Origin: Cubamyces lactineus
Lineage: Eukaryota; Basidiomycota; Agaricomycetes; Polyporales; Polyporaceae
Direction: 5' to 3'
NCBI GenBank assembly: GCA_022376465.1
Contig: JACDTU010000034.1
Location: 62,001 to 126,000, forward strand
Length of the DNA: 64,000 bases
Position 1 is the stretch's first letter. Each line of letters starts with the position of its first letter. The notes beneath the pieces were generated by a model. It was not told the origin of the DNA and searched no databases. It worked only from the letters and a program-made list of their open reading frames with translations. Position numbers and translations under genes: made by a program. This document shows, piece after piece, positions 19,263 through 43,347 of the stretch.

Positions 19263-21930
19263 ATGGAGCCTCATGATCTTTTCCTCGCGACTGTGCTGGG
19301 AGTTGTAATTGTACTGTGCATCGGCAGTATGCACTCCGTTTCCCGCACCAACAGGCTTAGGGTGTTGTCAAACCTCCCCCATATTCCATATCTCATCCCA
19401 TTCGTTGGCTCTGCGGTCAGTTTTGGCTGGAACCACGTCAATTTCTTTATTAAGTCAAGGCGGGTACCCTTTTTGGCACATTTATCATCGGCAAGGCGCT
19501 CTGACTGGTGTGTTCCCCATAGGGCCGTTCACGGGACGGATTTCAGACTTCTCGTAGCGGGAACATCATATGTTATCATCTCATCACACAGTGCTTTGAA
19601 TCTATTCTACCGCAACCGCGCTCAGAAACTCGTTCCCGTGCGCGCGCTCAAGCGCCATGGAATGGGAAATATCCAATCCGAACACTTCCCGGAGCTCCTG
19701 TCTACCGTGCTGATCCCAATCATTCTCAAGTCCGGCACTCCCGCAGTCCTGCACCCTATTGCCTGCGATTTCAATCGTCGGCTTCACAGCTACCTTGCCG
19801 GTGCGCATACTCAGGGGACAGTCTTGTCCCTGAAGCGCCTCACTTGCGAATCGCTCTTCACCTCGTTTAACCCCGCCCTGTTTGGAACCTCCTTTCCTGT
19901 CGACATATACGACGACTACGTCACAGTGGATGGTGATGCCTACCACCTTTTCTCGCGCACATTGTCCCTTTTTGCGTTCCGTGCGCAGGCGGCACAGCGG
20001 CGCATGCGAGCCCGGATTGCGTCATACATCAAGCCATGGCTAGCTACCGATGGGACAGTGGATCTACCTGGCGTGTCTGAGCCCGGGAACGCAATGCTAC
20101 GCGCCTTCGCAACGTCCAAGTTGCCGCCCTCCGACCAAGCAGGCTCAATCCAGGCATACCTATGGGGCGTGTACTCTAGCACGACGCGCATCCCCTTTTG
20201 GGTGCTTGCACACCTGCTGTGCGACAGGGACGCGTATGCACGTTTGAAGAGTGCTGTGGACCATGCGGTAGAGGCGGAGTTCCCTGACGAGGATGCCTTG
20301 CTTGACGCACATCCTGGGGTGATCTCTGGCCCGCGCTTTGCGATGGTCGATTCCGCGATCAAGGAGGCCGGAAGGCTATACATGCTCCCGTCATCGTATC
20401 GTACCCTGAGAGACGACATGGAGTTCCCGACGGCAGACGGAGAGCGACTTCAGTACTTGGGTTGCAACCCTCCCGTCTATTAGACAGCGAGGAGTTGCTA
20501 CCGGATGTAAGTCCGGCGTTAAAGGGGAGCTGCCGCGAGCATGCCCATGTCCGACGGAGGGGGTTGCAACCGCGGTTGCACGTACCCTGCCCACGGTTGC
20601 ATGCTCGGTTACTGTGAACGCAAGTCAGTACATGTTCAACAAAACGGCTCCGCTCAGAGTCGAACCCCGAGCATAGTACATGCGAGGTGGCCAGCGATAC
20701 CGCTGCACCACCTTTGGTTACAGGTATTCGTGTAGTGCAACCATATATACGTATTCGCATTGCTATGGATCTCGGACGATGTGTTAGAGCAGGTTAGAGC
20801 AAGACTTACCAGTAATCAAAACCCCCGCCGGTATGACCGATCATAGAATACACCCACGAGATAATAGTCGAAGGTACGGAAAGCGCGCACTTTCGGAACA
20901 AAACGCGATGGACACGCGACGAGAACAGTGAAAGAGACAGCTACTAGGTTACGGGGCGTGGGACGAGGTGGTAGTTGAGCGTACACAAGGGCGCGCGACA
21001 TCGGAGTCAATTCCATAGAGGGCACGCGAGGTCGGGGACGAAACGCGATGGTGACGGGAGGTGATCAAAGATGGAGACCCCAAGAAGGTCGATGCGTACC
21101 ACGGTAAGGCTTGCCCCTCATGTATCTAGTTCTCTCCGTGGACCTCACGAGCGCGGGATGTTCCCTCCTGATTATTGCAACGCCGTAGTTGCAACCCGTA
21201 CACAGTCGTCTCAGTACATAGGGAAGGAACATACGAAGCACGTACTATATTACAGTGTAATCAGTGCAATATGAAGCTCATGTAGTTCAGTGGTATGGCT
21301 GCCTCTACAACTTGTTTGTGCTTGGGGTTCGACCCCGAGTTTGGCTCTTTTGCTCAACTTATTGGACCGCAGCGGCAGTCATATGCGTGCGCATGGCAGG
21401 TCCTCTTTGGCTTTGAACTTGCATCCGGTCGCAACCCCTCACCGTCTAATAGACGGGGGAGTTGCAACCCCACTACTGAAATAGTTGAGACGGAAGCGAG
21501 ACCTTCTGGGTGCGGAAAGGCGAGATGGCCTGTGCGAACGTCACAAGTGTTCATATGGATGAACGGTTGTTTGATGATGCGGGAAAGTATGTCATCGACC
21601 GTTTCGTCGATGGAAACTCGCACCTCAGCCGGCATGTGGTTATGTTTGGCAGAGGACCGAACATGGTGCGTCGGCGTAATTCTCCACTGTGAAGCCTGCT
21701 TTTCTGATAGCATGTGCGGATGCCTTCATTCCTCGCAGTGCGCAGGTAAACATATTGCCAGCTATCTGATGAAAATGTTTGTAATTCTGTGCCTTCGGTA
21801 CTACGACATTGTACCATCGAGAGGGCACGAGGGGCTTCAGGTACCGCCAGTAAACCAACGCAGTGTCTCCGTGATGGCGCCTAGCAGGGATGTGGAGGTA
21901 TTGCTGATAAAGAGAAATATCAAGCCTTGA
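19263..21930 (+). CDS. Cytochrome P450 split by a 1,044 nt SINE-bearing segment
   Basis: Heme monooxygenase. Exons fit 19263-20452, 21497-21665 and 21739-21930: 1,551 nt, 516 residues, usual P450 length. It opens MEPHDLFLATVLGVVIVLC (anchor), passes VAGTSYVIISSHSALNLFYR, and has the K-helix ExxR as EAGR in IKEAGRLYMLPSSYRT. After the large segment come WVRKGEMACANVTSVHMDER and DRFVDGNSHLSRHVVMFGRG. A 73 nt intron (21666-21738) then joins FGRGPNM to CAGKHIASYL, a proper FxxGxxxCxG heme loop, and it ends VEVLLIKRNIKP. Without splicing, the frame runs into the SINE tail and stops at 20483 with no heme cysteine. One oddity: at 19465-19545 the P450-like frame seems displaced (GTLFGTFIIGKAL appears in another frame), so a small indel or unseen intron may exist. 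It is a live gene or a recent pseudogene. Confidence 0.75.
20455..20722 (-). mobile_element. tRNA-headed SINE-like element, copy 1
   Basis: Read on the minus strand, the head has a Pol III A box TGGTGCAGCGG and, 33 nt on, a B box GGTTCGACTC. The body is followed by a tail CATCCGGTAGCAACTCCTCG, then the palindrome GTCTAATAGAC, then GGGAGGGTTGCAACC. The same tail ends copy 2 in opposite orientation. No protein is encoded, as expected for a SINE. The P450 frame reads into this tail and stops within the palindrome. Confidence 0.7.
21278..21487 (+). mobile_element. tRNA-headed SINE-like element, copy 2
   Basis: Plus-strand head with A box TAGTTCAGTGG and B box GGTTCGACCCC, 32 nt apart. The tail is CATCCGGTCGCAACCCCTCA, GTCTAATAGAC, then GGGGAGTTGCAACCCC and TACTGAA. 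The tail is roughly 80% identical to copy 1 over about 65 nt; the heads are more diverged, and copy 1 has about 60 extra body bases. It lies inverted to copy 1, about 555 bases away. Confidence 0.7.
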
Positions 21931-35903: not shown

Positions 35904-35994
35904 TTCCCATTAGCCGACTCGAACGACTGACCTCGTCATGACTGGCTCGTAAGCAAGTACTAGTGACGCGCTCTACCAACTGAGCTAAACGGGA
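35904..35994 (-). tRNA. tRNA-Thr (AGT) with intron
   Basis: Complete cloverleaf identical in its mature part to the copies at 2.8 and 43.3 kb. The 18 nt intron reads CTTGCTTACGAGCCAGTC. Anticodon AGT. A T4 run lies further downstream, about 25 bases from the 3' end. Confidence 0.9.
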
Positions 35995-43256: not shown

Positions 43257-43347
43257 TCCCGTTTAGCTCAGTTGGTAGAGCGCGTCACTAGTACTTGCTT
43301 ACGAGCGAGTCATGACGAGGTCAGTCGTTCGAGTCGGCTAATGGGAA
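43257..43347 (+). tRNA. tRNA-Thr (AGT) with intron
   Basis: Plus-strand copy with complete arms. The 18 nt intron is CTTGCTTACGAGCGAGTC. Anticodon AGT. A TTTT terminator follows within a few bases (atcgttttgc). Confidence 0.92.

Follow-up and report, generated by a model that had tools for sequence, protein, structure and literature searches.

In maize, Ds and dSpm alleles have demonstrated by experiment that a transposon lying in an exon can be partly spliced from the pre-mRNA. Introners are known that carry terminal inverted repeats (TIRs) and/or target-site duplications (TSDs), for example in Aureococcus, where 4 + 8 bp are added to the transcript; the fungal group named in the main text of that source is the Pezizomycotina, and the string "Basidiomyc" occurs 0 times in it (PMC9860276). 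In a study of introner-like elements, the Basidiomycota served as the outgroup (PMC4457414), and the passages of the introner literature consulted name no introners in Basidiomycota (PMC9860276, PMC4457414). Galileo, of the foldback-like P superfamily in Drosophila, has long TIRs, size-variable copies and mostly 7-bp TSDs with a few of 8 bp (PMC4168063). Here we describe an insertion in a 64,000-nt stretch of the genome of the basidiomycete Cubamyces lactineus (contig JACDTU010000034.1, positions 62,001 to 126,000; hereafter the window, within which all coordinates are given unless a genomic locus is named). A non-autonomous TIR transposon sits in an exon of a gene taken as a divergent cytochrome P450, and it very probably disrupts that gene.

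The insert is a single non-autonomous, foldback-like TIR DNA transposon without coding capacity. It and its boundaries are laid out as follows:

20442..21487, plus strand: TIR (foldback-like) element copy, non-autonomous, 1,046 bp, with no long open reading frame (ORF) of its own; recognised by shared tips and TSD
20442..20465, plus strand: left tip GAGCGACTTCAGTACTTGGGTTGC, with a putative donor CA/GTACTT inside, at 20453
21464..21487, minus strand: right tip CAACTATTTCAGTAGTGGGGTTGC (minus-strand reading), with an acceptor-like AATAG inside, ending at 21484
20435..20441, unstranded: left copy of the target-site duplication, AGACGGA, 7 bp
21488..21494, unstranded: right copy of the target-site duplication, AGACGGA, 7 bp

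A search of the genome with the whole element returned 106 matches, of which only the best candidates were scored, and when the flanks of the genomic copies were aligned, one copy after another showed homology from about 20442 to about 21487. A pattern search with the 24-bp tips gave 25 perfect matches for the left tip and 25 for the right, the window copy included, plus an additional right tip with 3 mismatches; the reversed patterns, used as a control, had 0 matches in the genome. The 50 perfect tips resolve into 22 elements that each lie on a single contig, among them the composite at C42:600086-605382 with its two inner tips, one element split between C18 and C16, and two unpaired tips (C26, C19). 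Among the 22 paired elements, 19 are flanked by exact 7-bp duplications, 2 by exact 8-bp duplications and 1 by a duplication with 6/7 letters matching. Identical tips thus occur at dispersed loci, as in a class II TIR transposon. The inverted repeats are 76% identical over 108 nt in the window copy and reach 98% over 260 nt in the best copy; the alignment starts at nucleotide 8, the left and right tips being only partly alike in their outermost 7 nt. A 17-nt tip core, allowing at most one mismatch, recovered the family's 50 ends and two more places (C23, C24), with one match for the reversed control.

The duplication in the window is perfect, with AGACGGA on both sides of the element. When the element and one copy of the duplication are removed, the flanks join into a 469-amino-acid open frame through the empty site. 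Since coding sequence adjoins the duplication on both sides and the frame is open, there was no older intron at this position. The initial annotation had offered two possibilities, that two inverted SINE-like copies (SINE, short interspersed nuclear element) landed in an existing intron or that an insertion into coding sequence itself became an intron. The idea of a mobile insertion into coding sequence with a target duplication holds, as the TSD and the open empty site attest, while the landing in an existing intron does not, the coding sequence being open on both sides of the duplication. Nor are there two SINE-like copies: the genome tip searches and the TSDs reveal one mobile unit with defined tips. 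The "diverged direct repeats" described there are to be replaced by the perfect 7-mer at 20435-20441 and 21488-21494, the remainder of the proposed left repeat (gagcgacttc) being the tip of the element itself.

The perfect tips and target duplications imply that the family has moved recently in this genome. The window insertion itself is young, because only 7 of its 1,046 positions are private (manual count) against its three closest relatives, at C42 412 kb, C16 187 kb and C16 375 kb; the intact exons downstream are therefore uninformative on P450 function. We propose that a transposase acting in trans would have moved the element into an exon of the divergent P450, duplicating 7 bp. Transcripts would then run into the element and end at its stop codon (20481-20483), short of the haem-binding cysteine; the allele would be null or nearly null. 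The remainder of the P450 would still look intact because the insertion is young.

The host gene consists of the following parts:

19263..20441, plus strand: P450 exon(s) before the insertion, with K-helix EAGR near the end; open frame, homologue P0003
20481..20483, plus strand: stop codon, 13 codons inside the element in unspliced mRNA
21495..21665, plus strand: P450 exon continued, SETFWVRKGE ... FGRGPNM; Pfam p450 21.0 bits, E 1.7e-4
21666..21738, plus strand: ordinary 73-nt intron in the haem loop, GTGCGT...CAG, between the Met and Cys codons; predicted from the haem motif
21739..21930, plus strand: final P450 exon, CAGKHIASYLMK..., ending at the stop; scores 12.2 bits with Pfam p450, under the cut-off

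The assignment rests on motifs together with weak profile and structure matches, and it is for this reason that the gene is taken as a divergent P450. The ExxR motif reads EAGR in the upstream ORF P0001, and, by eye, FGRGPNM/CAG with the 73-nt intron in between corresponds to the haem loop FxxGxxxCxG. Scanned separately against the Pfam p450 profile (curated cut-off 22.8 bits), the pieces all scored below the cut-off, with none for the upstream piece, 21.0 bits for the exon-2 piece and 12.2 bits for the last. The upstream piece (393 amino acids) is 56% identical to P0003 over 68%, and P0003 itself matches Pfam p450 weakly (14.6 bits). Among solved structures, the upstream piece weakly matched CYP51 (E 0.22); the exon-2 piece matched molinate hydrolase first (E 0.011) and P450 74A2 next (E 0.027). 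An AlphaFold model of the exon-1 product had a mean predicted local distance difference test score (pLDDT) of 39.3, too poor to be used. A search sensitive to close relatives only found no close paralogue in the genome, the upstream piece matching only itself. No stop or frameshift was seen in the P450 pieces in an ORF scan of the upstream part and an inspection of the later pieces by eye.

Several details of the original gene model are confirmed, namely the ORF at 19263-20483 with TAG at 20481-20483 and a haem loop, FGRGPNM/CAGKH, that resumes downstream, here found by eye to be interrupted by the 73-nt intron at 21666-21738. The proposed length of 516 residues agrees with the arithmetic (1190 + 169 + 192 nt), provided that this intron is removed as well; it is a predicted length. 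The upstream exon also contains a 69-nt in-phase segment (19454-19522) with a GTCAAG donor, a CTGAC branch site and a TAG acceptor, which is probably an ordinary intron in P450 exon 1. If it is real, the P450 would be 23 residues shorter than 516.

The GT at 20453-20454 and the AG at 21495-21496 cited for splicing are indeed present, 1,044 nt apart inclusive. Their exact phase, which had been put forward as evidence, carries little weight: when the first 42 and last 100 nt of the element were shuffled 5,000 times, 93% of the shuffles gave at least one in-phase pair. The real ends contain 4 in-phase GT-AG pairs out of 12 in sense and 7 out of 24 in antisense; the AG at 21496 is not among the 12 sense pairs, as it lies outside the element in host DNA. 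This in-phase AAG acceptor is found 12 nt past the element's own TAG acceptor, use of which would create an in-frame TGA. If splicing used the element's outermost GT and AG, 14 nt would remain in sense and 17 nt in antisense; with the duplication added (14+7 = 21, 17+7 = 24 nt), this pair is in frame at any 7-bp site, and in shuffles the outermost pair is in phase in 32%. The tip letters left by the outermost pair contain no stop codon in any phase or in either orientation. In the P450 the outermost pair creates a TGA, while no stop arises in the other five of the six copies examined, of which three are only possibly exonic.

Intron-like spacing and splice motifs were counted in 93 kb of host DNA. 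The spacing peaks at 40-80 nt (35 versus 18.5 and 49 versus 22.1 expected); spacing of 80-140 nt is about as expected, and bins from 140 nt upward lie at 1.2-1.5 times expectation with no peak, which we take, without proof, to reflect composition. The 1,044 nt in question is 13 to 26 times the length of the peak. GTRNGT donors are enriched (65 versus 24.4 expected) and GTRNTT donors not clearly so (19 versus 16.2). Among acceptors, CAG (38 versus 11.5) and TAG (21 versus 7.9) exceed expectation and GAG (5 versus 10.9) does not. The predicted minimum-energy RNA structure has the TIRs folded into a long hairpin; there UUCAGUA from the left tip, which includes the first three bases of the donor, is base-paired to UACUGAA from the right tip. 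Folded without its last 46 nt, the element is more stable than every one of 20 shuffles (z -4.35).

The SINE-like appearance reported for the insert has a real basis in the inverted tRNA-like A and B boxes, but ARAGORN and Rfam were negative in the element. The two modules are placed as follows:

20657..20710, minus strand: tRNA-like module of A box and B box directed toward the left tip, then TTTT
21283..21335, plus strand: tRNA-like module of A box and B box directed toward the right tip, then TTTT

In the window copy, both modules have the same B-box core and a TTTT run. Across the family, 22 of 23 left ends carry the outward A/B-box pattern at a distance of 268-274 nt from the tip, as do 17 of 23 right ends at 204-341 nt; 92,954 bp of host DNA gave 0 matches on either strand. 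In the element, ARAGORN, run on the whole window and nine loci, called no tRNA, and Rfam gave no match (positions 20300-21700, E up to 1). Single-unit copies with TSDs of variable length, a SINE trait, were not encountered: the 22 paired copies have TSDs of 7 or 8 bp, and two tips are unpaired. The TIRs may derive from two inverted SINEs, or a tRNA may have been captured by the element. Elsewhere in the 64-kb window ARAGORN made three 91-nt tRNA-Thr(AGT) calls (2821-2911, 35904-35994, 43257-43347), which may be genes or tRNA-derived repeats.

Three other accounts of the locus were weighed against disruption of the P450 by a transposon. The inverted A/B boxes are what would be expected had two inverted SINEs been retroposed into an older P450 intron. 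The shared tips and the 7-bp (twice 8-bp) duplications of the 22 paired elements, together with the 469-residue open empty site, make this extremely improbable. There is also no clear solo unit, the best whole-element matches lying at family loci, although the tips at C26:26586 and C19:50199 could be solo or truncated. It is likewise improbable, if less so, that the element entered a P450 that had already decayed into a pseudogene and merely marks relaxed constraint. Such a history would fit the failure to find a close paralogue or family support in the genome and the need for an N-terminal intron (19454-19522) with an unusual GTCAAG donor; against it, the pieces are without stop or frameshift and the haem-loop and K-helix motifs are intact (by eye).

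That the transposon has become an intron, spliced out from 20453 to 21496 to give a working enzyme, is also unlikely. An open join exists, in which ERLH would replace one Ser (by eye), the outermost GT and AG leave a stop-free 21 or 24 nt including the duplication, and the P450 is otherwise open. Yet the outermost pair yields a TGA in this gene, in-phase pairs are expected by chance at the rates given above, the GTACTT donor is off-consensus with its start paired in the predicted hairpin, and the length is atypical; the AAG moreover belongs to host DNA. For these reasons the earlier suggestion that the insertion became an intron is not upheld. The length and the donor argue against splicing; the AAG acceptor scarcely does, since AAG is enriched in the genome scan, which leaves that argument weak by itself. 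Similarly slight is the chance that an introner of the transposon type is emerging here, in which a fungal TIR family with tips serving as splice sites in both orientations and inverted tRNA-promoter-like units in its long TIRs would be tolerated in exons as 21 or 24 nt remain.

Disruption of the P450 by the transposon remains the preferred explanation, and a number of observations count against it. A GT-AG pair that keeps the frame does exist (20453/21496), and the P450 itself has a likely 69-nt intron with an unusual GTCAAG donor. GTACTT donors (5 versus 2.2 expected) are too few to exclude their use, AAG acceptors are enriched (16 versus 8.0 expected) and the 600-1200 nt spacing bin is above expectation (610 versus 488.4). 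The predicted TIR hairpin could bring far-apart splice sites together. Finally, protein searches found no orthologue spanning the site, only P0003, which ends three residues short.

Copies of the family range from 1,046 bp (the window copy) to 21,158 bp, some of them being swollen by nested retrotransposons, up to 21 kb. An ORF domain scan identified nested Copia or Ty3 retrotransposons in C12:273494-281425, C11:454483-463115 and C3:899436-920593, and shared ORF starts indicate that C16:375619-381856 and C4:715147-724629 probably hold them too, as if family copies were preferred or safe landing sites for retrotransposons. At C42:600086-605382 there is a composite of two family elements around about 1 kb of other DNA; its outermost tips bear a 7-bp duplication (GCGCCAC) and its inner tips have no matching flanks, as if the whole unit had moved together. 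The left tip at the end of C18 and the right tip at the start of C16 have a common duplication (CGCTTTG) and the same gag-like ORF, which suggests one element broken by the assembly. For the unpaired left tip at C26:26586 and right tip at C19:50199, about 9.6 kb of sequence next to each contained no mate; they could be truncated, solo or very long copies. A diverged hybrid tip at C23:839326, its outer part resembling the right tip and its inner part the left, has no recognised mate in the 5 kb read.

The median ORF at the 22 empty sites is 129 amino acids, versus 136 at random window positions. As these ORFs are no longer than at random positions, enrichment of the family in exons is not seen, and the comparison is weakened because right flanks are short (<500 nt) at 9 of the 22 loci, which shortens ORFs. 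Seven separate flank pieces were compared with Pfam. Beyond the window, Pfam backs exonic insertion at C16c, in an alpha/beta-hydrolase gene (Abhydrolase_3, 2.2e-07), and at C3b, in a Ty3 retrotransposon gag (7.1e-13). The C34a flank gave a BTB hint under the cut-off (14.7 bits), and the remaining four pieces (two from C41 and one each from C42a and C43) gave matches to domains of unknown function below the cut-off or none. Exonic insertion at C34a, C41 and C42a is suggestive only.

The 7-8 bp TSDs and long TIRs fit the P superfamily (Galileo-like), a shared trait that is no proof of kinship, and the family is Galileo-like in structure. The P-type transposase profile PF21787 had no match, and the positive controls were equally silent. 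Ten long ORFs from the long copies and fetched neighbours comprised six with long terminal repeat retrotransposon domains, one Tc1-like (DDE_3/helix-turn-helix) and three with nothing. The large copies were accordingly rejected as autonomous elements, their ORFs giving nested Ty3 and Copia domains, one Tc1-like domain set or nothing. KDZ was discarded as the driver as well, as none of its 61 matches in the genome lies at element coordinates. The abundance of KDZ genes, together with fungal kinase and F-box genes and the short introns, fits a host that is a fungus and probably a basidiomycete.

If the element does no more than knock out the P450, the locus is an ordinary transposon insertion. 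The family would still be of some interest for its recent movement and for combining 7-bp duplications with long TIRs as in Galileo. We know of no element with outward tRNA-like promoters in both TIRs; the literature search on this point returned unrelated papers only, which does not show absence from print. Were RNA to show splicing, the locus would represent a DNA-transposon route to new introns in Basidiomycota.

As in the maize Ds and dSpm alleles, the exon is interrupted by a transposon whose tips have splice-like sites close by, splicing here being a matter of arithmetic only. As in tRNA-derived SINEs, there is an A box, a B box and TTTT after the B box; unlike in SINEs, each unit has two inverted modules, tips at both ends and TSDs of fixed length. 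The resemblance to the TIR/TSD introners (PMC9860276) lies in the GT and AG within the tips and a predicted excision that leaves a multiple of three including the duplication. In contrast to introners, there are about 25 copies of 1-21 kb with no exon preference shown, and splicing is only predicted. The introner-like elements of Dothideomycetes are likewise repeated elements within fungal genes (PMC4457414), whereas the present family is a TIR transposon with about 25 copies. With Galileo the family has in common long TIRs, size-variable copies and mostly 7-bp TSDs, two being of 8 bp. The preferred Galileo target GTATTAC is not evident here, and no transposase was found that would prove kinship. 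Unlike Galileo of Drosophila, the present family is fungal and carries tRNA-like modules in its TIRs.
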